NCBI GenBank assembly: GCA_963971425.1
Contig: OZ020514.1
Coordinates: forward strand, 16,745,218 to 16,809,217
Direction of reading: 5' to 3'
DNA length: 64,000 bases
Source: Bryoerythrophyllum caledonicum
Taxonomy: Eukaryota; Streptophyta; Bryopsida; Pottiales; Pottiaceae
Below the pieces are notes generated by a model, which saw only the letters and a program-made list of their open reading frames with translations, had not been told where the DNA came from and did not search any database. Positions 10,728 to 61,500 of the stretch are shown in pieces. Every line of letters begins with the position of its first letter. Position 1 is the first letter of the stretch. The position numbers and the translations under genes are program-made.

Positions 10728-10740
10728 CAGTATGACAACC
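10728..10740 (+). repeat. 13-base word, inverted partner of 23473-23485
   Basis: TATGACAACCCTG here and CAGGGTTGTCATA at 23473-23485 are exact reverse complements. Just outside both lie GGACGGACG-rich stretches. They bracket the first DUF7869/ParB module, so they might mark its ends or the ends of neighbouring insertions. Confidence 0.4.
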
Positions 10741-11870
10741 CTGACATAGATGATTCCTCTACTGAATAATTCCATATACATGTGAATCGTGGACCTCTGA
10801 ATTCCATGAATCGTGTACCATGCAACGGAGCTGATCTCCTTTCCCAACAACGTGATGTATTTTCTCTTCCGGTCCCCATCAATAGAGTGAAACTGCCTGC
10901 CTACCAAAATTGCCTGCCTACTACTTTTTGTCTTCAAAGGATTTGTCATAACATTTTTGCCAAATAGAAAGAGTCCGGGATTGTTGAAAATATTGGCAGC
11001 AACATCTTGGACAACACCTTTCCGAGCTGACCATGCGAATTTTGTCGTCGGTAGTCCTCTTGGTGTACAAGGATTCCTTCTTGTTAAGGTCTTGCTGTTG
11101 GAAAATGAATCCGTATGGCTCCTTTGGACGACCTCCCAAATGAGCATCAGAATTATGTTGTAAAGGCCGAGATGCAAAATGATCAATTGTGCTTTTCAAA
11201 GACCGCCCAGAAGGAAAACAACATTAAAGTATGGGCCACGATTCATGACTCATATTTCTCTCCGTGTCCCTCAAAATACGACGAGGACCATTATACCAAT
11301 ATTACCTTTTCCCAACCAACCACTACGGAAATGATCCGTTGGTGACGCGGCCATGATTCTCCAAGAGTTGAGCAACAACCCATTTCCATCCAACCACTGC
11401 ACTTCAAGTCCAACTCAACGCTCTCGTGGTACAAATGGGAAATTGTCTGACTGGAGATCTCCAGATGGAATCATGACATCTGCCCTTCTCCACAAGACGG
11501 TCCGCTAGAGTGTATGAACAAGTGAATCGTATCCGCGTTGCAAGAGAATGAGTGGTAATTCTTCCGCCGTGGACGTTATGGCCGTTGGTCTAAGTAATAC
11601 AAACTCCCTCAAACCGACTGGTATGTCGACTCCAAGCCATTGTCCTACTGGATGAACCTCAACAATGGACGCTTCTCCAATTTTGCCAGAACCCGGCTTC
11701 ATAAGGTTCACGGACATTCGTGAGCGTAGAAGCTCCAAACTTCTTGTAGACTCTTGGGATGGATCATTCTCTTCCGTGTAATTCACATGTCCAGAATTAG
11801 GGCACTGAGCTGCGACCATGGCAAGGTCGTCCGGGTCATGCTCCCACGACTTAGAAGTACATATACTTTT
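10737..11870 (-). pseudogene. DUF7869-like gene remnant, first copy
   Basis: The minus-strand frame 11819-11505 has an N-terminal module (GSGKIGEAS ... LGVDIPVGL) that aligns by eye with the N-terminus of the gene at 58138 (GSGVRIAEG ... LSSSVSLGD). After a stretch holding the palindrome CTGGAGATCTCCAG (11451), frames at 11199-10921 and 11186-10700 carry a Cys cluster (RCCPRCCC, like SCCSQNC in the second copy). They also carry RQFH...DRKRKYITLLGK followed by VAWYTIHGIQRSTI, like RQFH...GRKVVTLEG and HAWIKIMSVSSGTF. A frame change lies near 10930 and several stops occur. The 3' part, including the expected NKN and GHTHDD motifs, is missing; the gene ends near 10737, before the CACTA boundary at 10605. 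The function of the family is unknown to me; a transposase-like role is possible. Confidence 0.5.
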
Positions 11871-12274
11871 GTGCTACGTCGGTGGATATTTGGTTGGTGG
11901 CAGATGCCCACAATGGGAGTATGAGTGTGTGTGGATATGAACTGGATGATCTAGGTCAATATTGTAGGCTAGGCTAGACGGAGATCTCCGGCTGACCGGA
12001 GAATGATCTACAACCACGCCTTGATGTTCGAGTAAGGAAGAGTAGGGTGGAGCTCAAAGTTCGCGACGTATCTAACCAGAGATCTCCGATCAATTAGAAC
12101 CAGGTTGTCGAGCCAACTTTTGAAGAATATTCGACATTACAGTAGGCGGAGATCTCCGGATATCGTGCGTGAGGCAAAAATGACAGCCACAAGTTTCAGA
12201 GGGAGCAGCGGTGTTTAGCAATCGAGCTAGGGAGAAGTCAGACTTGCAAAGCTTAAACAACCGGAAATCTCCGT
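11451..12274. repeat. Five copies of the GGAGATCTCC palindrome
   Basis: Sites at 11451 (CTGGAGATCTCCAG), 11979, 12076, 12147 and 12261 (CCGGAAATCTCCG). The first falls between two coding blocks of the minus-strand DUF7869-like gene, as if intronic. The other four lie upstream of it. The same word accompanies the ParB/methyltransferase-like gene at 19.5-23.4 kb. Confidence 0.7.
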
Positions 12275-12827
12275 TGAGCTTTCATTGTCTGAAATGAAAC
12301 ACCTGCCGTACGGAATATTTGCGGGATAGGCAGAGAGATTCAATTGCAAACGCCGGACAACAATATGGATGCACACACCAAGCAATTAAATCATCTTAAT
12401 TCTGGAGTCGAAAAAAATTACGGCTTTCAGGCTATGACAATATCTCCGAAGATGAATTAGTTACGAAAGCACTATTTGACAGCTGCCAATCGACTGAAAG
12501 GTCAGAATGCAACACAATCTTCACCAATCCTCACAAAAAGACAGCGGATACGGATTCATACGAGAAAACGTACATAACATTCCTGGAATGATGTCAAATC
12601 GTTTCTCTACACTTTACTAGCACAATGTCGCGCACGCAAACACTCTCACTGTCATGCTTAGCTTCCACAGTAACCCAAACCTCTAGAGAAAATCAGATGA
12701 GAGCTGAGTTGAAGGATACTCTTATCAACCTTCCCAACACCTCTTGGAGGGAAAATTCAGGCGCTCAAATTTGAAACGGGTCTTGGGCATGCATGCTCGT
12801 TCAAACTAAGTGTTGTACACAGTCGTA

Positions 12828-19550: not shown

Positions 19551-19555
19551 AATCA

Positions 19556-19734
19556 GCTGGAGATCTCCGGATGATTTTGCGGTCTCATAGATAATGAAAT
19601 CCCCATTCATGATATGGTTGTTCTGGCACATAGCCGGAGATCTCTGGAAGTTACAAAGGAGTGGAGATATGCCCTGAAGAAGATGTGAAAAGTCGTGAAC
19701 CTCAGTTTTGGGGTCATCATCCGGAGATCTCCGG
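19556..19734. repeat. Three GGAGATCTCC palindromes upstream of the ParB/methyltransferase-like gene
   Basis: Sites at 19556 (CTGGAGATCTCCGG), 19633 (CCGGAGATCTCTGG) and 19721 (CCGGAGATCTCCGG), about 80-90 bases apart. The likely acceptor CTGATCAG at 19764 follows, so they may lie in a 5' intron. Confidence 0.75.
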
Positions 19735-21103
19735 TTGATGCCAGAAATGGATCTGTCTGATCAGTAGAGGTACAAATAGGCCCAAGATCCCCTGTTGTTG
19801 GCACTGTGTCATAGAAATTCGTGCCGTCGGAACAAGACCGAGTGGGACATCAAGCTTATTAAAACCCTTGAAGGAGCCTAGGGTGTCCCTTAGCTTAGGC
19901 GTGGTAGACGAGGACACTCCGACATTGGTCTCCAGGTTCTGAGATGTAGGGTCTTGATGACGAGGTTTGTCTCCTTGTCATCTAGGAGAACACGGATTCT
20001 TCCACCAATGCCCTCATATACGGCTTGATCCTGGAAAAATTTAAGATTTTGGAAGCATTGGTGGAGACTTGCCAGAATAAAAACTTTCTATTCCCCCCTC
20101 TCACGGATGATACGTGGATGCCGGAGTACATTATAGAGCAGTGGAAGTGGATGGAAAAAGCACAAACAAATTCCTGAAAGCCTGTTCTGGACCCTACTCC
20201 CATGTTGTCTCTGACACCAGCATCAGCCCCAGGAAGAAAACACAAGACCACCTTAAAAACATTGACCCCAGGTTCTTTGTCACGGGCAAAGAAGGGGAAG
20301 AAAACGAAGGCCGATGAGCCAGGCCTCACGATCGAAAAGTGCTTAAACTTCACACAGGCTGACCTCACCAAAATAAAGCGGACTGAAGTGGACGCTATTG
20401 GCAAGGTTCTCAATGACGCGTTCAAAAATGTTTACATACACAAAAATAAGCCGTTGACAATAGAAGACCCTGTCACGAAGAAGGATGTCCTCAAGCTTGT
20501 TCATTTCAACAACTTGCACAGGGCCTCTCCTAGAGGATTATAATATAGGGGCATCCAGAAAGAACGGCTTGAAGGCATCATCAACGCAGTTTGCGCGTCC
20601 TCGAAGGCAACGGCACCTGAGATTCACATTTGAGTCCTGTCGTTGAAGAAAAAACCTGAAGGAAGTAAGGTGAAGTTCTTCAAGACCAAGCCGACAAAGG
20701 AGGGCTGCCTGAGGGACTCCACGCACTTCTACATAATTGGTGGTTAGCATACTGTGGAGGCGCACAAAATTTTGTCACACGAATTGCCATCTACGTGGAT
20801 GCTCGAAGAGATCTCCCACTTTTCTATCATCACGGAGCGGACAAAATCGGACCCAAAAAACATGACCCGGCTACAACTCTCGCACGCACTCAACCAAGAT
20901 CTGACAAATCTGCAGAAAGAGCAGAGTTTCAGTGAGCAGCTGCAAACGTACAGAGTGAAGTGGTTTGAGTTCGGAAAATCAGCCCCCGAACTATATGGTC
21001 GTCCACAACCTGAGGCATTTTTGGTAAGATTGCATTCTCAATCTTCACAGAATGTCAGAATTCCATCGATGCGCTCTTTCATCACAGTAACCAAATCATT
21101 CAA

Positions 21104-21117
21104 CCGGAGATCTCCGG
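21104..21117. repeat. Perfect CCGGAGATCTCCGG palindrome inside an intron
   Basis: Lies within the inferred intron 21024-21150 (donor GTAAGA, acceptor TTGCAAG) of the first ParB/methyltransferase-like gene. Confidence 0.75.
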
Positions 21118-22154
21118 CTGCTCACTCACTGAAGTATTTCTAATTGCAAGCGTTCCAACGGAAAGTAGTACCAACGGTTTTCACGCACCTCAATAAAACG
21201 GACCACAAAGATGCGAAGGTTCCTCTTCTATTTGAGATGGATGACGCGGTGGTTTAGAAGTGGATTCAAATTGACAAATTGTATGTCGCTGGACTCCTAT
21301 CGGACTTGAACGGGAAGACGGGCGACCCAGCTAAGTTGAAGCGGAAACCTCTGGTGCAAAACAACTTCAAGCCACTATATAAAATGCGCGCTGAACACCT
21401 AGACTACCTCGCGGACTTAGTGCTCGCAAAGAAGGTCTGTGTAAAGTCCTCTAAAGCGGCAAACCAAGGTACTATGAAAGGGCAGGCCGAGACTCCCAAA
21501 ATGCTACCAATAGGGAGAAGAGAATCCGGACAATGATGAATAAACTCATGTTGAAATACAAGAAGCACGCCCTTACCTCAAAGTCTGCTGACTTCGTCCC
21601 ATACATGAAGGAGTAGTGCGACGAATTAACGGAAGAAAAGAATATTGGACGGGCCCAGCTTGAGTCCAAGGTGGGCGCTGCGAATCACTCGGCCAAGGGT
21701 AAAGCTTGGCTGGACGGCTAACTAAAGGCGATCAACAAGGAAACCGACGCCACCTCAGATGTCTTTGTGTCTAGTTGGAATCAACAGATTCCAGGTGAAG
21801 CTACAAAAGCCACCCCCAGCGATGAAACGTCCCTGTTCGACTACAAGACCCCCACTTTTACTTCTATTTACTCTATCGCGTGAAAGACGAGAGATGTCGT
21901 GCTCAGGTCCTCGATCTCTTCGACTTCAAGAAAATTTTCAACCATCATGAAGTGGACACAAAGGACGTCCGGACGAGTGTTAGATCACCGTTGGTTCTTA
22001 TCACCAACAAAGCACGATTTGTGGAATTGATGAGGCACCTTTCACTTTGGCAGAGGGAGTCTAGGGGCAAAGTGAAATTGTGGGCAACGCATGTGGTCTA
22101 CTACTTCCCCTATTGGAGTTTAGAGTTGCTCGTAGTTTTACGATATTGTAAATA

Positions 22155-22550
22155 GTTAATCGAGATAGATTTTGGGGGAAAGTAAAAGGGGAGAAAATGG
22201 GAAGAGGTAGAAAAGCCACATGTTGCACATGGGAATGGCTAAGTCAAAGGATAAGGACTAGCCCACTTGCTTTGACTATACGAAGTCAAAGATAAGGTAG
22301 GAAAGTCAAGTGGGTGGTGGCAAAGTCTTAGGGGGCGGCCATGAGACCCATGTGGGATGAAGCCACTTGGAAGTTGTTGAAGAAGGCACTAGGAAGGTGC
22401 CAAACAAGTGGTATAAGTAAAGGCCTTCGAAAGAAGGCAATATCTCACTCCAACCATTGTTTGCAAATACCTTGTGAGTGTATTTTAGCTTGTGCAACCA
22501 TCTCTCTACTTCTTCTAACTTCAATATCCCCCCCCCAGCTGATGGGTTTC
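22155..22550. other. Probable insertion splitting the methyltransferase-like region
   Basis: Coding similarity to the paralogue stops near 22150 and resumes near 22560. The intervening 400 bases have repeated AAGTCAAG words, a TATA-like GTATAAGTAAAGG and end in a run of nine C. It could be a solo LTR or a small insertion. No target duplication was identified. Confidence 0.35.
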
Positions 22551-23187
22551 CAACCCCAGATATCGGTGTCGGGGAGACAGTATACTGTGTATTCTTGTAT
22601 GAATATGATGCGAGCGAGACGCATGCTTAGTCATTCAAGAGGCTCTTCAAAGGCCACCTCGAGGAAATGCCGGCCTTCATTTCAGCCGCTCGTCATGCCG
22701 AATCTATCAAGGGCTAGAAGAGGCCCGATGTTCCACAGTTCAAGATCTCGATCCTTGATTCGCTGTCCACGGGGTTCATCAGAGAGGGTATGGTGGTCGT
22801 AAATGTTAATGGAGGACCACATTTAACATATCTTGGCTTAGTAAGTAGGACATCCTTCCCAAGCAATCCTTTGTCAAAGATTTTTCTGTCCGTATAAAGT
22901 TATATGTTTCAGATGATGCCGTTACTGAAATTTCTTCTTTGCAGACTCACGACAAGCGGAACCTCGAGATTGTGAACAACGAAGATGCCAAAGTAAAGGT
23001 CAAATCTTGCGCAGAAGAGATACTTAAGTACCACTTCAATATCTTACTCGGCGCTAAAGAAAGTGTTGCGGAGGACGTAGAGAAGACTTACATCACTGAG
23101 TCGACCTCAGGTGCTCGGGTTCAAACACGGGCAATGTCGGAGATGAACTTCACCGAAGAGGTATGACGTCTACAACAACTTCATGAG

Positions 23188-23313
23188 CCGGAGATCTCTG
23201 GCTGTTTATATGCTCCGGACGCCCTTGATACTTCAGGACTCATCTTATTCATTGCAATGTTCGAATTTAGTTTGCCCAGCAAACATGGACCACGTCGATT
23301 CGAAGATCTCCAG
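23188..23313. repeat. Two GGAGATCTCC-type palindromes in the last intron
   Basis: CCGGAGATCTCTGG at 23188 and AAGATCTCCAGG at 23302, both inside the inferred intron 23161-23383 (GTATGA ... TGTGACACAG). Confidence 0.65.
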
Positions 23314-23472
23314 GTGTATGATGTCGTTTCCTTCTGTATTGCATCTTCATTTTTTTCACACTGACTTCGTCAATGTGACACAGATGATAGATGGCCCGAT
23401 GTGCTATATGCACCGAATCCATCAGCGGTTCCCAGCCCCAGACTCGAGTCCTTAGCAGCCGTGGCGCGGGTC

Positions 23473-34110: not shown

Positions 34111-34120
34111 CTATCACTAA

Positions 34121-34995: not shown

Positions 34996-35250
34996 CCAAA
35001 GTGACGCTCACATATCTCAGAACAATAGAGGAAAACTCCAATCATTCAAAACAGAACGACATTCCATCAGCAGTAGGTATCCATTCCCCAAAACAAACAA
35101 AGTGGTGAAACATCTCGGTTTCATTTATCAAAAAAATATACACATGAAAAATGGTCCAACGAAATTTACAAAAAAGAGCTTCAATCAATCAATACAGTTT
35201 AGCTCTATCCAACTTAAAGTGTAATAAGCATCTAAGCGTTTCCAACGACA

Positions 35251-40532: not shown

Positions 40533-40544
40533 GGCCGGTGATTG

Positions 40545-45808: not shown

Positions 45809-46168
45809 TGAATCACATGTGTTTTCCACAAGAAGTCAAGCGACACGCACTCCACAAGGGGAGAATCAACGAGTGCAACTAAAGTAGAGAATGCAGAGCT
45901 TTCACTAATGATAAACCATCACTTTACAAGCAAAGAACTCACTAATCATTCTCTAACCTTACTCAGAAAGCTTGACTTGACAAAGACGTCAAGTCAAGGA
46001 CGTGTGCGGCGCTATACGCACACGCATACAACCCTAAGTGGATGAAAATCATCCACGGATGAAAGTGGTGCACCGCCGTTCGTCCCTAAACACACGTAGA
46101 TTAGTAACAAACTAATCTACGCTAAAATCTATGATACGGAGAGACCCTCGACGCCACGTCCCGTGACA
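45809..46168 (-). repeat. 5' LTR-like repeat (360 bp)
   Basis: Minus-strand ends TGTCACGGG ... GTGATTCA, the TG...CA rule. It differs from 36618-36977 at about seven positions, mostly transitions, suggesting a fairly recent insertion. It contains TTGACGTC/GACGTCAA-type inverted words and an ATTAGT...ACTAAT hairpin. Confidence 0.85.
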
Positions 46169-47435
46169 CAGTGATACAAGTCAGAGCCGTCAAATGTCAA
46201 GCAGTTTAGCTTGGGTCGAGCTGAAATGCTCGCTGAGCACTATAATATTAACAAAAAAATACTGGTGTACAAAATTGGACATTTACAAAATGTTCTGCCT
46301 CCATACACTCGCAACTACGTTACACTAACCTGACGATGAGCTGGGAACATCTGCGACAGATACGTCCCGAGCGGGCGACTTCGGACGGGAAGAGGGGCGT
46401 GTCGGCGGCGATGGGGGAACAAGAGGCGATTGACCCCCCATGGAGACGGGGGAGGAACCCGCCGGAGACGGCAGCAGCAAACCGCGAGATAGACTCCCAA
46501 TCCCTTCTTCCGCTAAGAGGGAGGCTGGGGAATCGCAGTATTTACTACGGGTGGTGTTGTGGGGGCTGCAAACAAATTAGCTGACATGAATCTCTGCATC
46601 ATGAGCATCATCTTGGCATGCCTCTGGTCTTGGTCCCTCTTCATCTCTTCGTCACGCCTCCGCTGCAGATCCCTGAGCTCCTGGTCACGCTCCGCCAGCC
46701 GCTGCTCCATCAACCTCATCCGGGTGGCCTCTTCCTTGAGCTTCTTCTCGAGGGAGATCAACCTGTTGTCGTCATGTGCACTACTCGCAGTAGCCAACGG
46801 AGAGCGGCCACTCGCGCTAGCGACTTTCCTCTTCTTGGCAGTGGGCCGAGCGGATGACCCGCCCAAGGTGGGAGCTAAGTGAGGCCTGTCAAAAATCTCT
46901 AGAGAATCCAACTGTGGGAAGTCGAGTCGTTGCCACGAGGAAACGATTGTGTCTCCTGCTTCAGATTGAGAGGCACTCTGAAACTCCGGCGGAGTGGCAG
47001 AACCGAAATCGTCATGGGGCTCATTATCTAGAGTGGCCGTGCTCGAGCTCGGACACTCAACCAAGGTGCTCGGTTCCTTGTCTTCCTCTTCATTGCCGAG
47101 GTCAACAACTGCTTTACCCTTCCCCTTGGCAACGACCTCTCCAACCTCGGGGAAGATCTTCGCGTTGACGTGATACGAAGCAACAACAAAATCGGCTAGA
47201 TCCAACGTCAACGCGACCTCCATGGCGTCGTCGAGATCGTGCTCATTGGTGTAGTGGGAGATGCAAAATGCCTACAGATCCAACATCTGTACACCAATGG
47301 ATTTAACAAGTAACACTTTAGGACGAATTAAACTAAAGTGAATAGGGAGGAACACTGATACGAAAAGTCAGATATTGCAACTTAAGGGAAACGACACGAT
47401 TGATGACTGCAAGAAAAATCATAAAAGTATATGCC

Positions 47436-47560
47436 GACACTTTAGCTCGACTCGAGTTAAAGTGTCACGCTACAAAAGCATAAGAGACGACCTCTCTGAA
47501 ACAATCCATGCACAGACAGAGAGAGGTATCAACAATTTAGCTCGACTCGAGCTAAACTGT
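47436..47560. repeat. Two TTTAGCTCGA palindromes in intron 3
   Basis: At 47436-47466 (GACACTTTAGCTCGA-C-TCGAGTTAAAGTGTC) and 47534-47560 (CAATTTAGCTCGA-C-TCGAGCTAAACTG), both within the inferred intron 47572-47272. Confidence 0.85.
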
Positions 47561-49018
47561 AGGGTAACTTACCACACTCGCAATGAGCAATTTCGTCCCG
47601 CCAAATAGCTGGACAGCTGACTCCCCCTTCTTGCAGAACATCTCCAGGACCTTGATGAAGAACTCCATCCTGAGCTCGTTCATGTTCATGCAGTATGAAA
47701 GCTCGTTGTACTTGCGCAGCTTGGTGTGCAATACACGCTCCGGAGCTGCGTAGGTCTTCTTCACTGCCGGGATCTACGTGAGCTCTATCTTGAAGAGAAA
47801 GAGGAGGCGAACTGGGTCGAGAGCGTTGTTGCTCTTAGGCGCGTATCCTCCCAAGCGCTCGTTCTCGGAGGGAAGATACTTCGACTGCAGCACATTGTAC
47901 GCATGGCACAATGACAGGCCCTCAACAAACGCTGTCACTTGAACGTGTGACTGCTCGTCGCTGCAAATGAAGAGCCATGCTGGAAGACCGATGAGAAGAG
48001 GCTGCCCTTTTGATGCGAACATCGTCATGAACTCGTCGAAGAAGGGCCTCTCCAACGACGACGTTGCCTTCCCAGAGAACCCATGGATGTTTCGAAAATC
48101 GATGATGCCGAGCTTCACGTTGCAGCCCAGGTTGCGCCATGAATCCGAAGGCCACGTGTCAAGCGAATTCGTCGCCGCCTTGTATGAACGAAAGTGCAGG
48201 GCTCCCTGAGGTCGAACGAACCGCGACCGCACATCGATGAAGACTCTGAAGAACTCCTTAGCGTACGAAGAGAGATCTTCACATTTGCAGTTGCGAAACT
48301 GCGTCTGTCTCGAGTCCTTGTAGTACGAATCCAGTGGACCCCAATCCAGAAGGGCACGCTTTGAAGCCTTGCTGACGTTGTAGTTCTTCTTAAACGTCCG
48401 CCAATTGGAACGACTGTACGCTCAAGAGCTATTAAAGAAGGCCAGCTCCGGCCTGATCAACTGCAGCTCCATCCGAGCGACCTCCTTTCTCTTCCTTCGA
48501 TCGACCCAGTCCATGGCGCTGCAGCAATCCTCCAGCACAGAAGTTGGTTGCTTTATAACCACCTTTGGGTAAGGCAGTTTTTGAGATGGCCCTGATTGAT
48601 TGAGAATGTGCTTGCACATTTTCGCGTGATCGGCTTCGGTCATGTTGCCGAGAAACTTGAAGAACTTGCGCGTCAGAACCCCATCCTTCTCAGGCACCCA
48701 AGACTTGGCGTCCTTGAACTTTGCCATGGGCGTCGATGTTGAATCGACGTTGATGAGGTTCCCATGCGTTGCCGAGGAGATGACATCGGACGAGATCTTG
48801 AAGGTCTCATCGAATGAGGTGATGATTTTCACCTCGTTGGTAATAGAGAGCTCCTTCGCCTTTCCGGCTTTCTTGAGCGCCGCCTGGCTCTTAGCAACGT
48901 CAATCATAGCAAAGCGCTCACGAACGGAGTCAAGAAATGGCTGCACAGAACATAAGAAGGCTCATTGAGTTAAAATTGAAGTAGAAAATTAAACATGTCT
49001 AATAGGGTCCAACTTCTG

Positions 49019-49143
49019 CAAGTTAGCTCGAGTCGAGCTAACTTGCAACCTAAGAGTAGACATTGAAAGCGAGTCCACTCTAAACACAACAGAATACAGA
49101 TATTCAGCAAGCATGCACTTAAGCTCGAGTCGAGCTAAAGTGC
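49019..49143. repeat. Two TTTAGCTCGA-type palindromes in intron 2
   Basis: At 49019-49047 (GCAAGTTAGCTCGA-G-TCGAGCTAACTTGC, perfect) and 49115-49143 (GCACTTAAGCTCGA-G-TCGAGCTAAAGTGC), both inside the intron 49167-48941. Confidence 0.85.
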
Positions 49144-50680
49144 ATGACCTTAGTTAAGATATATTACCTCAAAGCGCTTGTCATTGGCAATCTCCACTAC
49201 CGTTCGCCGTCATGACTTGTGGTTTCCGCGAACGCCTGTGGCGGAGTGCTTCGGCATTGGTCTCCCAGCTTGGATCCACAAAGCACGGGAGCCAAGGATA
49301 TTCGTTGCCCAGGTCGGCTTGAACTAGACCAAGTGATTCACGCGATTATAATACGTGGAAATCTTTCTCAGCTTCTCCGGATCCTTTGTCCAGGCAATGT
49401 AACACAGCTAAGTTCAGAAGTGCCTTCTCATCACCTCTAGGACGTTGCCGTTGATCATTTCCTTTGATACAGCAACATTGTGCTGGCCGTTGATGATGTA
49501 GAAGTCGTAGTCGCTGAGCTCCCCCACAGTCGTCGGCATAGCATCGAGCTTTGGCATGACACAGAGAGTCTGCTTCTGCGTCTTGTCGGGCATTTGGAGG
49601 TAGTAATGCTTTAACTCCTCGATGCCCCGAGGCTCGAATGCACAGATCGTCCACTCCGGTGGTGCATTATGCAACCTCATCAGGTCAAGCTCGATCTTCA
49701 TCTCTCTGTCTCCATTGAAGAAGCAGATCTGACACTCCGTCCAGAATTTTTGGTAAATCTGTCGAACGTTGTTGTAGTGGATTGCCTCTCCGAATCCGAG
49801 CGCCGAAGGAAGCTCCAAGAGTGCAGAGGCCATCGAATTGGCCATCTCCTCCTCTGATACGAGCTTTGTCTTCTTCCTAGAAGAGGTCTCCAGCTTCTTA
49901 GCAGCTGAGCGCTTTTTAACGGGGGAAGCAGACAGCGTGTTGCGTAGGGTGCTTCGACTTGTTCTTGCACCAGGTGTTCTAACCGGGACCGACGCTTGAC
50001 TCATATCCTCGCTACCGGTCACGGCCCCCGAAACCATTGAAATTTCTATCGGGCGTCTTGCCGCGATATTTTTAGCCTTATCTAGAGCGGAAAAGGTACT
50101 CATTCTTGATAGAATGACGCGGAGTTTGTTAGCTACAGCCTTTTCTTTCAGCGGCTGACTACTACTAGTCTCCCATTTCTTTAGAGAGATTTCGTGGATT
50201 TTCTGAGCCACTATTTCATCAAACTTGGACCCCCTGAGTGATTCGATTAAATTGTTGATACTGAAGGGAGATGAACTATTGTCCACTACAACAGTAAACA
50301 AATACCGCTCTACGGACTTATTGGTTGTCTCACACGACAACTTAACGTGATCGTCATCTTTGTGGACTGCATCAGTAATTCTGGTCTTGAAGTCAGTGTG
50401 TTGGAGTTCAGCGATATCACCAGCGAAGGTCTGACCAAACACAAGATTGTCCGTAAACGTTGCCCACAGCAGCATCTACTTTAGTGTCATCGATGGGTCT
50501 TTGAGCTCCCAGCAATCCAAGTGGTTGTTGTCGTCGCCATCCTCATCATCAAAATCGACGGGCTTTGGCTCGAAGAAGTGCTGAAGCTGAGTCACCATCC
50601 TGTCCCTCTCATATCTGCACACACACGAGAGCGAGTAAACATATTAGATTGATGCATTGATGATCCAACTAGGAGGGAGA

Positions 50681-50747
50681 GGTTACACTTTAGCTCGAGT
50701 CAAGCTAAAGTGTAACCGATTACTTTAGCTCGACTCGAGCTAAAGTG
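50681..50747. repeat. Two TTTAGCTCGA palindromes in intron 1
   Basis: At 50681-50717 the arms extend to GGTTACACTTTAGCT / AGCTAAAGTGTAACC. A second lies at 50721-50747. Both sit in the inferred intron 50788-50615. Confidence 0.85.
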
Positions 50748-51074
50748 CTATTCCATAGAATGTAAATCTTTAAAGTTCTGACACTTACAATATTAATTTG
50801 GACGTCTATCCAAGACGTTGTTTTTATATTCTCATCAACATCTTGTTCAACTCCCAGAACTGTGGAAGAGCTTCAGTTCCGCTTCAATCACTCACGAACC
50901 TCACTCTTTGAGGTTCTCAAGTGGTTGGAACGGGACTTAAGCTCTTGCACACTTGTGAGAGGTGAACGAGTAGAAGACTTGAGTTAGGTCATCGATTGCG
51001 TCGTCAAACTTTACTTTCAGATTGTCATTAGGTGTGAACGTAGAGGTATTTGATATGTGCATTCGGTCCTTTGT

Positions 51075-51565
51075 TTTACAATTTAGCTCAATTCAAGGTA
51101 AAGTGTGTTGGCTTTGATGAAAAGATTTAGATTGTTTAAAATATTGAGTTTGAGCGTAGAAATTATGATCACTTTAGCTGGAGTCGGGCATTAGCGTGAC
51201 CAAAGACACATTTTATCGTACATTTTAGCTCGACTCGAGCTAAAGTGTGATCTCCAGAGTGCACTATTGAGTTGCATTTTAGCTCAAGTCGAGCTAAAGT
51301 TGTCCTCCACTGTGCACTCTGGGCCACACTTTAGCTCGAGTCAAGCTAAAGTGGTCCTCCAACGTGCACTATGGGCCACACTTTAGCTCGAGTCGAGCTA
51401 AAGTGACCCTCCACTAGAACACTACTGGCCACACTTTACGTCGAGTCGAGTTAAAGTGCAGCCAAAAGAGCACACTGGAGAGCCCACTTTAGCTCGACTC
51501 GAGCTAAAGTGTGGCCAATGGTGTAATATGGAGGGCCCACTTTAGCTCGAGTCGAGCTAAATTGT
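51075..51565. repeat. Array of seven or more TTTAGCTCGA palindromes upstream of the ParB-like gene
   Basis: Clear copies near 51222, 51275, 51332, 51379, 51433, 51485 and 51538, plus degraded ones near 51080 and 51173, spaced about 50-57 bases. The spacers are related (TCCTCCACTGTGCACTCTGGGCCA), so this is a tandem of about 52 bases, each unit centred on CACTTTAGCTCGA-S-TCGAGCTAAAGTG. Confidence 0.9.
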
Positions 51566-51769
51566 GTTCATTGAAAAGCTTATTTATTGCAGTTTGTGCA
51601 GATGTGTCTTTTGTTATATGATATTCAAGGCTCAGGGTTTAGGGCTCTTGGGTGAGTATGGTTTCACCTTTCAGCCATTGATTATGAACTTTAATCCCAG
51701 ACAAATTCTGCTAGAACTAGACGTCCTGCAAAAACAATAACAAACCCACACACACAAAATCAATCAAAG

Positions 51770-52140
51770 TAGCACATGGAAACCAACACATTGAAACCAG
51801 AACATTGAAACCAGCACATTGAAACTACCACATTGAATCTAGCACAAAGCAGCACATTGACACCAGCACAAACCAGCACAAATAAACCAGCACAAACCAG
51901 CACAAACCAACACAAACCAACACAAATAAACGAACACATTGAAATCATTCACATTGAAATCAACACATTGAATTCAGCACATTGAATTCACCACATTGAA
52001 ACCAGCACAAACCAGCACATTTAATCTAGCATAAACCAGCACAAATCACCACAGACAACCACAAACCACCACAAACCAACACATTGAAACCACCACATTG
52101 GAACCAACACATTCAAACCAGCACATTGAATACACAATTT
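51770..52140. repeat. Tandem ACCAGCACATTGAA minisatellite
   Basis: More than 25 imperfect 10-15-base units built from CACATTGAAACCAG and CACAAACCAG. Frames over it are artefacts. Confidence 0.9.
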
Positions 52141-52369
52141 CATCTACGTACTCACACATACATGAAAAGCAATGCTACACATATATAATGATTCATCACA
52201 TTATATCAAAAGCAATACTACACATATATCAAAAGGAATGCAAAAGTGAATGAGTTCACTTACCTTTAAAACTCAGAAATCCGACTGCTAGAGCTGCAAA
52301 TCTTCTTCCTCGTTCACGTCAATCCTCCGAGCACGGCTATTTCAGAGTCGACGTGCTCACAGAAACTCA

Positions 52370-52455
52370 CATAAACTTACAGCAATTCACACAAACTTAC
52401 ACAAACTCACACAAACTCTCACAAACTCACACAAACTCACACAAACAACCCTAAA
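52370..52455. repeat. ACAAACTCACAC tandem repeat
   Basis: About eight units of ACAAACTCAC. Similar wording recurs loosely to 52700. Confidence 0.8.
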
Positions 52456-53525
52456 CTCCAGCGCTACAGTATACACAAACTCATCTACGTGCTCACAAAC
52501 TCACACAACCAGAATGGCACGTCCAACAAACCCTATCCGCAAAAAACCCTAAACTCCAGTAAATTGCGCACGAAAGCCTGAACTGCAGCGCTAGAGTATA
52601 TACGAACTTAACAAACCCTGTAGATATTGACTCTAACACAAACCACAAAGACGCAATGACGAACCTACACAGAGACTCACAAAACTCACAAAACAACAAC
52701 GCGTAGAAGAACGTCCAAAAAACTCGGACAACAACAAAAAGAGGGAAAAAAAAAGGTCGCACCATGATTTCATGGAGTACTTCCTGGGGCACCTAAAGCC
52801 GTGCGGGTCGAAACCCTGTGGCCGTGCGGTGCTCCCGAGATACCTCGGAATCCCTTTGCGATAATGGGGTGAGACCCTCGGGTATTAACGGTGGATGCAC
52901 CACAAATCATTCACCTTCGTTATTGATACCCGGAATTTCAAGAACTCAATTTAATCTTACTAGAATAAGTTCAAAATATTATGCGCGTGTAGTATTTATG
53001 TACTCGTTATTTTCCTGCACAATTTATCTGAGCCATTAACACTACAATTTTTTTTATTCTGGGGCAACAAGCAGGCAGTTAAGGAAAAGTGGTTCTTTCC
53101 AATTTCATTCGTATGATCTAAATTAAAACTTTTAAATTGACATTTTCTCAATAATACACAAACTTGGATTGCACAGAAGTGAACGATTCTAGTGTTAGTG
53201 TTAGATTTAGTGTTTAGTCTTTAGTGTTATAGTGTTTAGTTTTCTTTAATGCTTTTGGTGGATCAGCAGGCTTTTATTTGACTCGATTTCAATTTTTGCT
53301 TTACACAAGGTGTAAATTTGTTACCATCGATATATATAAGTTCCTCCTACACCAGTTTCTAGGTGAAGCACACTTAAGAGAGTTTTAAAGCTACGATTTT
53401 AAGATTCTATTACTTTTAATTCAAGTTTTGTTTTTTTGTGAGTTTGATATTATTTACTATGAGAATTGAGCAGACAATAAGTATGTTAAGACCACATCTT
53501 GCAATTGTATAAATTTAAAATAAGT
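52456..53525. other. Stretch without a supported gene
   Basis: A minus-strand frame at 52792-52493 gives a hydrophobic, Cys/Phe-rich product without domain; I do not support it as a gene. TTTAGTGTT repeats lie at 53190-53240. Confidence 0.4.
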
Positions 53526-53529
53526 GCCA

Positions 53530-53630
53530 GTGCACACTTTAGCTCTATTGGAGCTAAAGTGTGCATATTTTCTGTTTAGTTTCCTACATTTAGTTATGGT
53601 GCACACTTTAGCTCTAATAGAGCTAAACTG
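53530..53630. repeat. Two loop-variant hairpins of the TTTAGCTC family
   Basis: CACACTTTAGCTC-TATTG-GAGCTAAAGTGTG and CACACTTTAGCTC-TAATA-GAGCTAAACTGTG. The arms are the family arms, but the centre CGASTCG is replaced by a five-base loop. Confidence 0.8.
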
Positions 53631-53639
53631 TGATTTTTT

Positions 53640-55080
53640 TCTTTTTTTTTCACTTCATTTTGCTTTAACTGTAACGGTACAAATACTGTAGTTAGAGCAT
53701 CTCCACCCATGACGGAGAATTTCCCAGGCCAGCGGGAAGGTGCCCAAGTTTGAGATGAAGGGAGGGGGGTTACCCTTTTCCCCCCACATTGTCCCCGAAT
53801 TGGCCACTCTGAGAGAACGCCAGCGCCCAGCACTAACGCCATAGTAGGCTAATTTTTTTGGGGGTTTTTATTCATTTTTTTAATTCCCTCGTGTCATTAC
53901 ATGATTGAACACATGCTCCCGAGGAGTTTTGGTGTCCCTTGTATTTTTCGTAAATTTATTGTTTAGAAGAACCGGCGCCGCCACTTCATTGGGCCGAGAC
54001 ACCGGCCTAGGCCTCGCGGAGTGGGCTTTACCGTGTTTATTCTTGCAACTCGGTCCCTTTGCCACCGTGGAGATTCTCTTTTTCTAGTACACTATATGTC
54101 AACAATTTGGCAACTACTTTTAGCCACCATTGTCATGAATATTATCCCTCATTCGTTCACCTACTACAGTTCATTTCGTAATAGCCTCAAACAAAACTCT
54201 ACCCTAGCACACAAACTTGAATATTCAATGAATAGTATTAGATCATAAACTTCTGCCTACCGGTCGCCATGCATTTTTTTTTCGTCTCATCTTCAACCTC
54301 AATTTCTTATCATCTTATCCACAACTATTCTCATTCGCATCTCTTGCATTACTTCCTTTTCATCATTTAATATTCTCTAATGAATATATAATGTGTAATC
54401 ATATATTTAGCCAATAACTAATGACTTTGTAATGATTTTTTATAAGATAGTTAATGTATATTTGTATATTTGTAACTTTTTAATTAAAGAATATTTAAAG
54501 AATATTTAAATATTATTTAATGAATGTTTGAAGTTTTAAAACTATAATTTATGATAGTTTAATTAATATTTGTATATTTAATGATTATTTAAAGGGTATT
54601 TAATGTACTGTTAATGAAGAGTTAATGAATAGTGTATAAATTTCTAATGTAAAATCATTGTGTATTTGAATATTCAATGAGTATGTAATGAATATTTACT
54701 GAATATGTAATGAATATTTACTGAATATGTAATGCACATTGAATGCATATGTGATGGATATCTAATGAGTATTTGACTTGTATTTCTATATTTATTGTAT
54801 GTTTATGTTTTTTCCTTTTCCAATATTCCTTTCTTTTCTCATTTTCGTTACAAGAAGAATGTTCTTATATTTCCAATCTTCTACTTGTAGTTTCATTTTC
54901 CCTCCATATTTTACATTCTACTTTGTCCAATTTTTGATATTTTCCTTTTGCTCTATACCTACGTCCAATTATTCCCAAGCTCTTTCTTGCAAATTCTTGT
55001 TTTTCTACATGCACTAAACCCTTCTTTACTGTAATGCTCAAGATGTAATCAAATCATGATTAAGGTTTCCTACAGTAACT
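53640..55080. other. AT-rich stretch without a supported gene
   Basis: At 54400-54780 there are loose TAATGAATATTTAA repeats. Short frames only. Confidence 0.45.
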
Positions 55081-55239
55081 GTCCACAAGTAAAAAACCTT
55101 ATGCTCCACTATTTACTAGGATTGACATTTAGAGTAGTAGTTGACATTTAGTGTTAGATAGTTTTGTCACTACACTAATTGTAAATTTTACAATTACTGT
55201 ATGGATTCCTATTTAGTGTCCACTACACTAGAAGCCATC

Positions 55240-55530
55240 TTCTGTATACTGGAGCTACATAGTGCATTTTTGCTTTCTAATCCACTCCATTTAGTGATGG
55301 TGTAAAATTTAGCTATAGTAGAGCTAAACTGTGCATATTTTCTTCTCAGTTCACTGCACCTAGTGATGAGGCACACGTTAGCACCAGTGGAGCTAAAGTG
55401 TGTACACACACTCCTTTTAGTTCATTGCACGTAGTGATGGTGCACACCTCTGCTAAAAACTGAGCTGCTGTATGTGCAATGTGTATTTCCACTTCTTCAA
55501 ACAATCATTTTGAACTCCGTACTTCTCTTT
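55240..55530. repeat. Hairpin block, left copy
   Basis: Three to four hairpins with variable loops (near 55310, 55374 and 55440), spaced about 66 bases, with spacers reading TTCACTGCACCTAGTGATG. The block ends in TTCCACTTCTTCAAACAATC. The same order of hairpins, spacers and tail is found at 61280-61500. Confidence 0.65.
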
Positions 55531-56820
55531 ATGGTTAAGTATTTCACAAGTGAAATAGTAATCTTTTGAATTTTAAAAGGATTTTCAAAATATGTGGACC
55601 TAAATCTCCAATAGTAATATTAAAAAACAAAAAAATATGATAATCCCCTAGTCTTCAGTGGATATGAAGTCTAAGTATTCTTGGTACCCTAGATCAATAA
55701 TATGTGACAATGTGTGAAAAATGTATGAATTGGGATATAATCTTATTTTTCACTAGAAAAATAACTTGTTTTTCCACAATATCATTCGTTCTAATATTAC
55801 TTCTATATATTGAAATATCACATTCCATATTGTGTCATAGAAATTGGTTTTTTAGGTTTCACGACGTGTCGGCAATCAAGAAGTTTCTCTCTTGGCTCGC
55901 ATAACTTTTATTAAAGATGTTCAGTGAGAAAATAAATTACTTATAAATATGCCTCATGACTTTTATCATCCTTCTACAAAATTTTCAGAATTTGAAATAT
56001 AATTTGCGACCACTGGAACGTGCTCAAAAACTTATTATTCTTTTTTTGCATGTATAAATAAATTCAAAATTACTTACATTACGAACATTAAATTATGCCT
56101 GATGCACTAAGTGATACACTTTGTATTAGTTATATGTTATATTTTGATTATCCTTTTTTTGTCATGAGGAGGTCTCTCCGTATTTTGTTTAAATCTTTTA
56201 ATATTGTTCCACTCTCTATGTTTTACAAATGACAAAGTCTTTAATTTCACGTCAAAACATGAAATACATTGTGTATGGTCAAGAATTCTTCCATCTTTCA
56301 TGTCATGCTTAGATTGCCACACCCTAAACTCATAATAATACAATGTGAACTCAAGAATAAGATATTTTAATTAAACTATAAGTTTGCGCACATTTCAAGC
56401 CTTTGAGTACCTCTAAATGAATAGTAACCAATTTCAATTCCAAATCCAGACCATGGGGACACTTGGTATTCTTGCAAAGGAATGAACATACTAATTTGAT
56501 TACAACATAGTATCATTATGCACATTTTTTGAACCCCGAAGAAATGATGTCCAAAGCATTTTTTAATACATACTTTTTTGCTCAAAATACACGTGCACAT
56601 GTAATATGTTTTTTTGTTTTTTTAAATGCTACTCATTTGTTAAGGTCTATGCTTTCAACATCATAGATAAGTCCTATTTGGATTATAATACAAATTCTTT
56701 CTAATCATCTCAATATCTTCTCTACAGTTCCCTATACCTTAGTTGAATTGTCAGTATTATGAATCTTCAAAGTATTATTAAATTGAAATGAAATGACATA
56801 AGAAGATTCCACCTTAACCA
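55530..56820. other. AT-rich stretch without a supported gene
   Basis: Only short frames on both strands; no repeat structure noticed. Confidence 0.4.
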
Positions 56821-56822
56821 AG

Positions 56823-56925
56823 GATCCTAAACCCTAAACCCTAAATCTAAACCCAAATTCCAAACCCTAAACCCTAAATCTAACTAGAAACCCTAAACCC
56901 TAAACCTAACCCTTAGCGTTACCAT
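56823..56925 (+). repeat. Interstitial telomere-like CCCTAAA repeats
   Basis: About ten units of CCCTAAA with CCCTAAATCTAA variants, the plant-type telomere motif in degenerate form. Confidence 0.8.
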
Positions 56926-57540
56926 AAAACCGTGTATATTATTCGCATGTGCGAGTATATTCGAGGTAGGTACTCTTCCTTATTTTATTCAATCGGGAAA
57001 TAGTTGATTCAGTTTCCCGCTGAGATTTCAAATTTGCAGTTTTTCAGGGGCTGTGGAAAAGTTTCCTCCCGCCAAATCTGAAGTTTCCTCCCGCCAATTC
57101 TGAAACAGTCGTGTGTCCGTCAGTGACCTTGCCGATCCTCGAAAACTTTCTTCATTTGTTTCCTTCTCACTTTGGTTGTTGTGCAAGGTTGTTGTGGAGA
57201 GGCTTGGAGGTAGTACAACTGTTGGAGGTTGAAGAAGGCAACATCTACAGGTTGTGCATGGTTGAGCAGGGCGCTTGCGCGAGGCAACAACGCACCGGTT
57301 GTCTTCTTCATAAGGTACACAATGTATACTTCTTGCATTCTCTGTGCACTCTAGCAATTAGGATGTGACAATGTTTAGGGTTATTGCGCTGGTTCCAGTT
57401 GCTACTATGATTTTGAAGCATCACTGCGAGTATCTTGACGGCTAACGCAAAGATTTGGATTGTAGAATACAAAGAGACAGATTCATTGGCTAAAGAGTTT
57501 TCCCATATGAATCCCAAAAACGACGCCGAGAATCACGGAA

Positions 57541-58040
57541 GGGCACTTTAGCTCGAGTCGAGCTAAACTGTCACTATATATTATTATCTACAATTTAGCT
57601 CGACTCGAGCTAAATTGTCGTTAATATTATGGAATGACAGTTTAGCTTGACTCGAGCTAAACTGTTAGTATATATTATTATCTACAGTTTAGCTCGACTC
57701 GAGCTAAACTGTCATCGGATATTAGGTAATACAGTTTAGCTCGAGTCGAGCTAAAGTGTCATACCTTATTTTCTATGTTTGTTTACCTCGACTCGAGAAA
57801 AATTGTCATACCGTCTAATAGTCAACATTTCAGGTCGGGTCGGGCTAAAATGTCATTGTCAACGATGAGATAATTTCATTTTCGGATTAAAACTAATCAC
57901 ATGAAATTGCATTCTTGTCATATAATACTATATGTGTTTACCTCGAGTCGAGCTAAATTTGCATGTATTACATTGTCATTTTAGTTGATTGGAAGTTCTT
58001 TTCAAGCGCTAGACCTTACCTCGATTCGAGCTTAATTTCC
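57541..58040. repeat. Array of about nine TTTAGCTCGA palindromes upstream of the DUF7869-like gene
   Basis: Copies near 57543, 57590, 57636, 57684 and 57731 are spaced 46-48 bases. Degraded ones follow near 57785, 57830, 57938 and 58020. Arm pairs differ in step: CACTTTAG/CTAAACTG, CAATTTAG/CTAAATTG, CAGTTTAG/CTAAACTG. The array ends about 100 bases before the start codon. Confidence 0.9.
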
Positions 58041-58137
58041 CACTTCCTATGCTTCTTCATTGATGTCTATTCCTACAAGGTATTCACCCATTCTGATTTG
58101 GCAGGATTATTTCATATTTATCTCATTGGAATGCAGG

Positions 58138-60970
58138 ATGTCATCTTCGGAGGGTGACGATGATCATGTTGACGCTCCGGTGAACCCAGACCTTCCTGAG
58201 TTTGATGTTATTCTGCACCGTCTCTGGGTCGGGATGATTATTTCGCTTCACAATGGTTCGGGTGTTCGCATTGCGGAGGGGTTGGTTCGCAATGTCCAGT
58301 CTAGTGCAATTCTAAGTTCCTCTGTTTCTCTTGGGGATTCTAATGTTGTAGTACAGGTGTCAAGTACTTTTGTTCAGGAGGAAGCTCCTGATGAATGGAG
58401 GTACTCGTTTAAGTCCTGGCCAATTCAATAAGTCTTTTTAAACAGTGTGAGTCTCTTCCATCATTGTCTTAGGGACGTTTACAATGTCTGGTTGGTTGAG
58501 CGTAACAGACCTCTAGGTGGGAGCTCCCGTTCATACGACAATTCCTCAAGGAATACTTGTCCAACATTGTCCAGGAATGTTGAATTCCTCATGACCCCTC
58601 ATTCCATTAACGCAGTTGCGAGCAATAGTTGTTGTTCTCAAAACTGTGTTCAAGACTACCCTAGAGATAAAATAAAAGCCCTTCGGACGCGCTTGTATAG
58701 TGAGACCATTGTGCAGTTTAGAAATCATATCAAACTCGACGTTCATCGACAATTTCATAGAAACTCTACCGGTAGGAAGGTTGTGACCCTAGAGGGTGTG
58801 GACGTTTGTGCCCATGCTTGGATAAAAATCATGAGTGTGAGTTCGGGTACTTTCTATCGGAATGCGAAGGACGCTGCTGCTGGTCATGCGGCTCAACACC
58901 ATGGGAATACCGGTTTGCGTAAGCCTAGAGGTCATACGGTTGTGGCTACTGCCGCTCTTGGAGCCATCCTCGATAGACATGTGGACCACATGCCTCACAA
59001 GTCTCGTGTTCTCCCTTCTGGCGAGAAGGCTGTGGCAAAGGTCCTTCCTGCAAGTTTTAAATGGAAGGATCAGATACCGCTTCTTGATGATCATCTTGCT
59101 GATTGTGGATTGCCGCCAATCTCAAGCTCAAGCTTGAGTAAGATTCGGCGAGTGAGCTTCCCTGAGTACTATGCCAAGAAAGGTGGAGACAACTTTGCCC
59201 GTTGTTCTACGTGTGACAAATACGAGGATCAGAAGAAGCTTATTCAACCTGGAACACAAGCATCACTGCTATGGAAAAAGAAGATGCAGGTTCACATCGA
59301 TTCTGCTTTTGCACATCTAGACTTGTACTATGTGAACCGATTTCGATCAAAGTCGTCGCCTCAAGAGGTTCTAACCATCATGCATGATAAGATGGATCAC
59401 TCAAAGACCGTCTCTCCAGTTTTTTCATGTAAAACAAAGCACTTAGATGGGCTTATGAAGTTGCCTCTTGCAGTCACAGGCATGCTTGCCCATGGTCATG
59501 TGGACCAACGTTACGCCCATTACGGCCTTGATTTATACTCCCATGATGCCAATTACATGGTCGGGTCGTTCACAAAACTATTGCGTGACCTGGAGGCGCC
59601 TCCGAAGTCATCTTCCCGACAACTTTTTCCTGAATCTAGTTCTCATCCATTGTATTCGGTGGTATTACAGGGTGCAGATATGTGTTTGGATCCATTAGGG
59701 CAGATTCCAGATGTCCTAGTTCCAGGGAGGCCTTTGCCTCGAATATTGAACGTGCAAATGGACAATGCTGTTGGTGATAACAAAAATAGATTTGTTTTCT
59801 GTTTTTGGTCTCTCCTTGTGGCAAAACGCATTTTCCGCGAGGTATATGTTAATTTCATGCTAGTTGGTCATACACATGATGATATAGATGCATTATTTGG
59901 ACGTTGGAGTATGACATTGAGGAAGGAGAGTTTTCCAACCATTCCTTTGCTCATGAGGTCGTTCATGAAAAATGAGAGTGTTCCCACAATCCCGCATCTC
60001 ATCCAAGAGGTTCCTGACTTTAAGAAGTTCATTGGGGATATGATTGCGGACGGTGATGAAGCTTTGCAGGGTCATACGAAGGCTCATCAATTCAAGTTTT
60101 ATGTGGATTCTAGTGGTTCTCCGGTAATGAAGTATAAAATCCTTTGTCATGATGAGGATTGGCTTCCTAAGGGAGGAGAAGGTAGTGGCATCAAATTGTG
60201 GAAGGACGATTCTGAAGGAAGGTCTTTATGGCCTCGCGGAGAACCGGATGCATTGAAGCCTTCTACGATGCGGCATCTCCATGAGGTGGTGAAGGGACTT
60301 TCAGGATTCATCGATCAGTGGGAGTAATCATCGCGGGAGACTGTTGAAGCCCGTTTGCGTTTTGAGCCGCTATCGTACTATTGGCACGATGTTAGAGATA
60401 CTCTGGCCCTTCCAATGGATACGTCGATATCATTGGAAGACAGCTTTTGGCCAACAACGCGAATTGCCCATGCCATTGAAGATCGGTTCTCAGCGGAGGG
60501 TGAGGTTCACGAGGAGTACCGTGAAGATGAGCATTTTGTTGGTCAGAGACGCGATCGTCCACCTCCTTCTTTTAGAGTTGGTCGTGATCTTTTTACTGGC
60601 TATTTTGTTGCATTGCAGCCTTGTGATGGTGACAAGCGCCCATTTTGGATTGCTCAAGCAATTTCAGATCCTAATTCTAACCCGGATATGCCAAACACCG
60701 TGCGTATCCAATTCTTCCGCCCTATATCGTGCGATCGGGATGTTCCTGAAGTTCTATAAAAATTGGGATATTGATTGCAACCTTCGCAAGACAATTGAGA
60801 AAGGGATAGCCATAACGTGGGAGAGTACCAATTCAATTTTGACAGCATGGAAACCTAGGTCTTCAAAGAGGGATGGAGGTCATGTGCAAGATTCAACTAC
60901 AAAAATTCCGAAGGGGCAAGTAGCGATTATCAAGGCCTCCTTGGAAGCACTTGCCAAGTCCGAGTCGTAG
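58138..60970 (+). pseudogene. DUF7869-like gene, second copy
   Basis: Starts ATG 58138 (MSSSEGDDDHVD). The frame passes TAA 58429-58431; a 45-base intron 58401-58445 (GTACTC...AAACAG) would remove it in frame. It then runs to TAA 60327, continues in frame to 60759, and after a frame change near 60750 ends at 60970 (ALAKSES). Marks: a Cys cluster (CCSQNC), VCAHAWIKIMSVSSGTFYR (helix-turn-helix-like), CSTCDKYED, then QMDNAVGDNKNRFVFCFWSLLV and FMLVGHTHDDIDALFGRW. This Asp-Asn...NKN...GHTHDDID pattern is what I recall for DUF7869 proteins, whose acidic residues resemble an RNase-H-type transposase core; that is inference. A basic C-terminal module follows. Divergent from the ParB-like gene. Confidence 0.65.
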
Positions 60971-61279
60971 TGGACTTAGATCAATGGACTTTCCTTTTCC
61001 TAGATTTTCGATTCTGATGCTTAATACTTCATGTAGTATGGTTAGATCTCTTGGTGCTAAGATTATAGATAATATTTGTATTTGATTACACTCTGTATGA
61101 CTATATGTGATGCCAATGATTGCTATGAAATATTCTCTCCAATGTTTTTGCGTATCAGTGATAATTTGCAGTATGTTTTATTTTCTTTTTTAAATAACAA
61201 TGTGATAAATTGCTTCTAATCTTGAAACCAATAATACGAGTAATTGCCTTCATGGTGAATGATAGAAAGTAAATGCTGG

Positions 61280-61500
61280 TTCACACTTTAGCTCCACTAG
61301 AGCTAAAGTGTGAGCAAATCTTCTTATTTAATTCACTGCACTTAGTAATGGTGCGCACTTTAGGTCAAGTGGAGCTAAAGTGTGTGAAATTGCCTTTTTG
61401 AGTTCATTACACCTCTAAGTGATGGGGACACTTTAGTTCAAAGAGAGCTAATGTGTGTGCATTTGTTTTCCACTTCTGAACATCATCATTTGAAACGCGT
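61280..61500. repeat. Hairpin block, right copy
   Basis: CACACTTTAGCTC-CACTA-GAGCTAAAGTGTG at about 61289, then two more hairpins near 61358 and 61428 with spacers TTCACTGCACTTAGTAATGG and a TTTCCACTTCTGAACATCATC tail. Same layout and orientation as 55240-55530. Confidence 0.65.

Follow-up and report, generated by a model that had tools for sequence, protein, structure and literature searches.

Two regions of the window, the whole 64,000-nucleotide stretch of Bryoerythrophyllum caledonicum DNA analysed here, were read in a first-pass annotation as one two-gene module occurring twice: a DUF7869 gene facing away from a gene for a ParB-like/methyltransferase-fold protein, each copy with its own palindromic word. 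This raises the question of what the modules are and what the words are for. On balance, they are best explained as two families of giant DNA transposons whose ParB/methyltransferase-fold protein would recognise its own element. The features concerned are collected in Table 1.

Table 1. Features of the two modules in the window (palindromes are copies or variants of the module's own word).
Feature	Position	Strand	Remarks
Module 1: DUF7869 remnant	10745..11256	(-)	N-terminal part only, frameshifted
Module 1: palindromes upstream of DUF7869 remnant	11448..12277	.	11448, 11975, 12143, 12258
Module 1: palindromes upstream of ParB-like gene	19554..19738	.	19554, 19631, 19718
Module 1: ParB-like exon 1, pseudogene	19995..21026	(+)	4 in-frame stops, one inside GQH motif
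Module 1: palindrome right after exon 1	21101..21120	.	location resembles module 2
Module 1: stretch weakly resembling end of methyltransferase-fold domain	22535..22915	(+)	hhalign E 0.012, probability 3.7%
Module 1: more words	23185..23316	.	2 and 4 mismatches vs 20-bp form
Module 2: complete transposon	33838..61951	(-)	reversed vs C10 copy; homology, TIRs, TSD
Module 2: lone variant palindrome	34474..34500	.	opposite element end, past Gypsy insertion
Gypsy LTR retrotransposon splitting module-2 element	36510..46173	(-)	ends approximate; foreign to module
Gypsy ORF	37404-40544		RT, RNase H, integrase, PHD finger
Module 2: exon 3	46514..47284	(-)	coiled-coil-like (weak)
Module 2: intron 2	47285..47571	(-)	palindromes 47533, 47438; degenerate one 47314
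Module 2: exon 2	47572..48940	(-)	amino-methyltransferase-fold domain; in-frame stop 48422
Module 2: intron 1	48941..49165	(-)	palindromes 49116, 49019
Module 2: exon 1	49166..50615	(-)	ParB-like GQH motif; several in-frame stops
Module 2: array upstream of ParB-like gene	50686..51564	.	seven copies 51221-51538, spacing 52-54 bp; also 50686, 50721, 51079
Module 2: variant palindromes TTTAGCTCNANTNGAGCTAAA, intergenic	53535..55400	.	paired, 69 bp apart
Module 2: array upstream of DUF7869 gene	57544..58038	.	47-bp spacing; final copies degenerate
Module 2: DUF7869 gene	58147..60958	(+)	candidate transposase; in-frame stops 58429, 60325; frameshift near 60750
Module 2: three variant palindromes downstream of DUF7869	61284..61455	.	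72-73 bp apart

Module 2 lies in a complete element that has the terminal inverted repeat (TIR) 5'-AACACCATATTCGTTATA at both ends and the 4-bp target site duplication (TSD) CAAA on each flank; with up to 4 mismatches allowed, the 18-bp TIR matches the window only at 33838 and 61934, exactly in both cases. Another complete copy (C10; 18,818 bp, TSD CTGA, TIRs alike at 28/29 bases) aligns with the window from 61951 to 46173 and again from 36510 to 33838, on either side of a Gypsy retrotransposon with repeats of 359 bp that are 98.3% identical (36619-36977 vs 45810-46168). The gene pair does lie at 46.5-61 kb, where the module had been placed, and the element that carries it is larger and holds the Gypsy insertion. 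TIRs with a short TSD at these two sites, as in cut-and-paste transposition, are accompanied by numerous further copies of the element, and the 4-bp TSD presumably fits the Sola superfamily. Both genes carry stops in the window; among the copies examined none was seen to have every gene open, the DUF7869 frames of C10 and C15 being interrupted.

The DUF7869 gene matches PF25273 (E 8.3e-43) and is 84% identical to P0001 and 80% identical to the open 947-aa ORF of L001. The invariance of D417, D542 and D584 across 39 DUF7869 homologues is suggestive of a DDD/E transposase, the probable identity of this protein. The splice sites of the divergent partner gene are GT/AG and were assigned by eye. 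Its ParB-like part shows the motif FYIINGQHSVAAS and an order of strands and helices that we take to be the ParB pattern; Pfam searches of the protein gave no match to a ParB domain, and this part of the structure model has a pLDDT under 50 and returned nothing in Foldseek. The exon-2 domain has the fold of beta-class amino DNA methyltransferases (N6A/N4C). In the module-2 family one product joins the two domains, an arrangement hinted at in the module-1 family.

The module-2 word is the 27-bp palindrome CACTTTAGCTCGA-S-TCGAGCTAAAGTG, of which the window holds 26 copies (<=3 mismatches; 0.00 expected), all within 46.2-61.4 kb; the module-1 word GGAGATCTCC occurs six times against 0.08 expected, always within 11.4-21.2 kb. 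Neither word occurs in the other module, and the claim of a private palindrome for each is borne out. The words stand in upstream DNA and introns, and the exons are free of them. The arms of the module-2 word covary among 33 copies (score 0.140 vs 0.072 +/- 0.012 when shuffled, 0/500 shuffles being as high); the four pairs changed on both sides are unremarkable, as 59/500 shuffles reach that number and slid versions give up to 5. The looser variants at 53.5, 55.3 and 61.3 kb fall outside what a simple model explains.

Module 1 represents a second transposon family, in decayed form. The idea of a module present twice holds in that the pair recurs in relatives, but here the DUF7869 gene is reduced to an N-terminal remnant (10,761-11,256) and the ParB-like exon to a pseudogene. 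Positions 10745-12820 are 76% identical in DNA to a relative in the same genome (L058). From the window alone the kinship of the two modules is weak (hhalign E 9.4e-5 and 2.6e-5); it is made plain by own-genome relatives of the module-1 ParB-like exon, which are 76-80% identical to it and in many cases without stops.

The 437-Mb genome that holds the window also contains relatives of both modules, and in many of these the exons are open; the type of palindrome beside both genes tracks the clade without exchange. All 30 module-2-family loci examined have TTTAGCTCGA-N-TCGAGCTAAA and none the module-1 word (0/30), and 12/12 module-1-family loci have CCGGAGATCTCCGG with the module-2 word in 0/12, counts that are not independent because loci of one family are close relatives. 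Two loci of a foreign assembly, at 44% protein identity, have TTCAGCTCGA-N-TCGAGCTGAA, in which both arms are changed, and the word is known in DNA for three clades; at that assembly's third ParB/methyltransferase-fold locus (L006), a search of 2.2 kb at <=4 mismatches found no word of the module-2 or L004 type. The genes stand together in 4/4 regions examined for both (three module-2-type, one module-1-type); neither separate genes nor a palindrome type out of step with the gene phylogeny, the two outcomes that the first-pass annotation had named as evidence against its reading, was seen. The pair in the C3 copy is not divergent because its DUF7869 arm is inverted, and the C15 copy has one additional DUF7869 arm. 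The elements of modules 1 and 2 are almost certainly mobile elements with clade-tracking words; mobility had been recognised correctly (TIRs and 4-bp TSD at two sites, many copies), and the elements form two families.

We propose that the ParB/methyltransferase-fold protein binds the palindrome of its own family as a dimer and, once bound, would mark the element's own DNA at promoters and introns. This protein is probably the binder of the words, although DUF7869 or a host factor could bind them instead. If the palindromes were binding sites of the DUF7869 transposase and not of the ParB-like protein, a parallel would exist in the TnpA binding sites of En/Spm, and it would fit that words also adjoin the DUF7869 gene and that variants lie nearer each element end (34474, 61284-61429); this is unlikely, as the exact copies are kilobases internal and occupy promoters and the accessory gene's introns.

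Canonical amino-methyltransferases have a catalytic DPP[YFW] motif and an FxGxG SAM-binding motif, both absent from the aligned homologues covering those positions: the motif IV position (DPPY) reads D-F-R in 22/22 aligned rows, and motif I ends in G-x-K in 19/19 rows with letters there. Owing to these alterations the protein is classed as methyltransferase-like and not as an active methyltransferase, and sequence-specific binding is favoured over methylation as its likely job; the loss of DPPY need not mean that catalysis is lost. The same alterations make it quite unlikely that an active domain methylates A or C within its own palindrome, as a transposon-encoded modification system, a reading helped by the N6A/N4C fold, by the presence of AGCT, TCGA or GATC in the words and by the 4mC or 6mA activity that the Ectocarpus authors predict for their protein (PMC12477816).

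It is very improbable that the words work in RNA, as hairpins near 5' splice sites that control splicing: the first intron-2 word does begin within ~20 nt of the end of exon-2 homology at most loci, but the biggest arrays lie upstream of genes, and an Rfam search of 46-62 kb gave no match. Functionless tandem repeats spread neutrally by duplication would explain the regular 47- and 52-54-bp spacing but scarcely the like word positions in elements only 43-65% protein-identical, the change of both arms or the word-free exons, and conservation across clades leaves this idea almost no room.

Returning to a self-recognising protein, we consider it fairly likely by analogy that binding, if it occurs, serves anti-silencing or autoregulation: the element may be shielded from host silencing in the VANC/VANDAL manner, or both genes may be self-regulated, which is the least certain step. 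Word and protein would change in step, since an element stays active only while the two match. A wider and more tentative proposal is that a ParB-methyltransferase fusion of bacterial type has lost its catalysis in moss transposons and become a means of self-recognition; the protein of each clade would read a private dyad word placed at the promoters of the element's two genes and in their introns, with array nucleation, a silencing shield and coevolution through which related families ignore each other. Since two of the three clades have many open exon copies in one genome, the recognition question suits simple binding assays.

Among known systems, bacterial and plasmid ParB-parS likewise combines a ParB-like domain with clustered palindromic sites, but the moss element is a nuclear transposon in which no ParA was seen and no HTH domain identified, and the parallel would be a works-like one only. 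VANDALs are Mutator-like, and VANC is to our knowledge neither ParB-like nor methyltransferase-like; its likeness to the moss protein would lie in mode of action only. VANC is described as a sequence-specific anti-silencing protein for the VANDALs (PMC5735166; PMC10398659), and in Arabidopsis each VANDAL family has target motifs of its own, located in introns and upstream of genes (PMC5735166). Both systems pair an element-encoded accessory protein with short, tandemly repeated motifs that lie upstream of the element's genes and in their introns and that change between related families, and the moss motifs are likewise family-specific, noncoding and in step with the protein clade; the moss words are palindromes, a term that PMC5735166 does not use. 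Sola1-1_Ec32 of Ectocarpus is a 21.5-kb transposon with a ParB and DNA-methyltransferase gene opposite its transposase, and similar proteins occur in green and red algae, according to PMC12477816. It and the moss elements are giant DNA transposons with a ParB-like and methyltransferase gene on the strand opposite the transposase; the Ectocarpus methyltransferase is predicted active whereas the moss motifs are altered, and the host is an alga instead of a land plant. The earlier statement that no described eukaryotic system has such a layout is overturned by Sola1-1_Ec32 and by the VANDAL/VANC motifs. With ParB-methyltransferase genes opposite the transposase already known from algal transposons, what is new is the land-plant case, the candidate target words, the tracking of word and clade and the altered catalytic motifs. 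Section 5 of PMC12477816 mentions no target word and does not state what the algal proteins recognise, and the moss offers concrete candidate words in three clades. If binding is true, these would form a natural series of joint change in a DNA-binding protein and its site, and plant transposons would have, beside VANC, a second and differently built system of self-specific recognition.

The palindromic word carried by these transposons tracks gene clade, across three clades. In the window search, the M1 and M2 words (the palindromes of the module-1 and module-2 families) both occur far above chance at their reported places and each is limited to its own module, which bears out the claim of the first-pass annotation that either module has a word of its own. 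The M1 word has CCGGAGATCTCCGG as its best form; the M2 word is a 27-bp palindrome with a single free base at its centre. The check proposed in the annotation, palindrome type against gene clade, gave no crossover in the loci read. Exact M2 words are present in all 30 module-2-family loci read (4.4 kb each, from 89 scored matches to exon 2, the methyltransferase-fold exon), and the M1 word, allowing up to two mismatches, in 0/30. Twelve of the 117 module-1 matches were read; all 12 contain exact M1 words, which account for 63 of their 66 perfect 14-bp palindromes, and none has the M2 word. Loci inside a family are close copies, and the independent units are the three clades.

A third word, TTCAGCTCGA-S-TCGAGCTGAA, lies in the introns of L004 and L005, two loci 82% alike and each 44% alike to module 2. 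Together with L001 and L006 they are moss-like transposon contigs within the metagenome assembly named uncultured Synechococcales cyanobacterium AVDCRST_MAG81, where they are probably contamination. L006, the third locus, has neither the M2 word nor this third word within 4 mismatches; the same assembly includes a DUF7869 gene 80% identical to that of the window, with an M2 word upstream. Among ORF tails of 10 residues or more that enter introns, 8 of 10 for exon 1 and 9 of 11 for exon 2 fit M2 with no more than one base off, mostly with 0/2000 shuffles equally good; since P0160 and P0159, two of the tail proteins, are encoded by L004 and L005, tail and locus evidence are not independent. Two Rhizobium species also contain the exact M2 word, one copy apiece (L002:914-934 and L003:567-587), with flanking bases alike.

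The words avoid exons. In module 2, exons make up 42% of the span and hold 0/32 words, with a chance of 3e-8 if words are independent and 0.007 if they are taken as 9 clusters; C10, the complete copy elsewhere in the genome, has 0/34 in exons whose bounds are approximate. A word sits in intron 1 in 32/32 loci and in intron 2 in 31/32 by script, the 32nd (L004) being shown by a separate reading of that locus, and arrays also lie upstream of the DUF7869 and ParB-like genes. In an alignment of 33 M2 copies (32 distinct) the arms covary: paired cells reach 89.4% vs 84.1 +/- 0.9 in shuffles, and the score is 0.140 vs 0.072, equalled in 0/500 shuffles. Pairs changed on both sides number 4, a value reached by 59/500 shuffles, and slid versions give up to 5. 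Because the copies share a duplication history, the covariation supports selection for dyad symmetry but does not prove it. The element carries two word grades, for which a simple model gives no explanation: a looser variant occurs in the window, with weaker words at similar places in three fetched relatives.

The (+) gene of module 2 encodes a DUF7869 protein with relatives in Ceratodon purpureus and Physcomitrium patens, on which basis a moss host was assumed. Split at GT/AG sites, the (-) gene reads as three exons. Three relatives (C15, C10 and C3) were fetched from the 437-Mb, 894-contig genome. C15 and C10 are 98% identical along the element and diverge abruptly at its left end; the right end was set from C10 and C3, C15 being shortened there. 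C10 itself spans 18,818 bp; its terminal repeats of 29 bp agree at 28 positions, and its duplication is CTGA. Projected onto the window, this element shows that the annotated module 2 covered most of a complete transposon but missed its other end, beyond a later insertion. The divergent gene pair is kept in C15 and C10 but not in C3, where the DUF7869 arm is inverted. Next to the C15 element, head-to-tail, lies another left end that carries a DUF7869 gene of its own (L037, 3023-6645). The window genes contain in-frame stops and many exon-2 relatives are stop-free; in both C10 and C15 the DUF7869 frame is broken, so no copy examined is a fully open element. The L001 DUF7869 ORF is open (947 aa).

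Coordinates of features in the window
Feature	Position	Remarks
Module-2 element, projected	61,951 to 33,838	exact 18-bp terminal repeats; CAAA on each flank
Gypsy element	~36.5-46.2 kb	nested within module-2 element
Looser palindrome variant	53535-53630, 55305-55400, 61284-61455	69-73-bp spacing
Module-1 insertion	~12.82-16.66 kb	
1.17-kb repeat, two copies	12827-13993 / 62834-64000	84% identical, same strand, adjoins both modules; first copy opens the module-1 insertion, second runs past window end
Tandem array	24450-25237	unit 82-83 bp
Protein-kinase-like ORF and diverged pieces of related gene ~23 kb off	3186-4478 and 26256-27789	Pkinase E 4.6e-10

From the window alone, kinship of module 1 to module 2 is weakly indicated, by a DUF7869 remnant of ~150 residues (i-E 3.2e-7 and 8.8e-5) and a ParB-like exon recognised from IIGG*HTVEA (hhalign E 9.4e-5, probability 59%). 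Relatives in the same genome settle it: 117 scored matches among 889 candidates (window copy included), 76-80% identical and many open. Upstream extension of one, C6 (L058, 7 kb), reveals a DUF7869 gene that runs on the other strand and matches as two blocks of homology. The stretch also holds five exact copies of the M1 word, one of them between these blocks and the rest beyond the N-terminal block; the M2 word is absent from these 7 kb. Compared with L058, the DUF7869 gene of the window copy has been shortened by loss of its later part, and the window copy contains the insertion. For a methyltransferase-like part in module 1 there is no more than a hint (E 0.012).

The simplest reading is that a dimeric DNA reader, derived from a ParB-methyltransferase fusion, would mark its own element. 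What such marking leads to is inferred; self-regulation, or plain help to the transposase, may also be its role. The literature searched yielded no report of target words for ParB-methyltransferase transposon proteins. The gene layout, for which the first-pass annotation knew of no eukaryotic case, is not new: according to PMC12477816, Ectocarpus Sola1-1 has the same one, and similar proteins are reported from green and red algae. The best-studied parallel to such self-marking known to us is VANC, for which PMC5735166 describes motifs specific to each family that lie in introns and in upstream regions.
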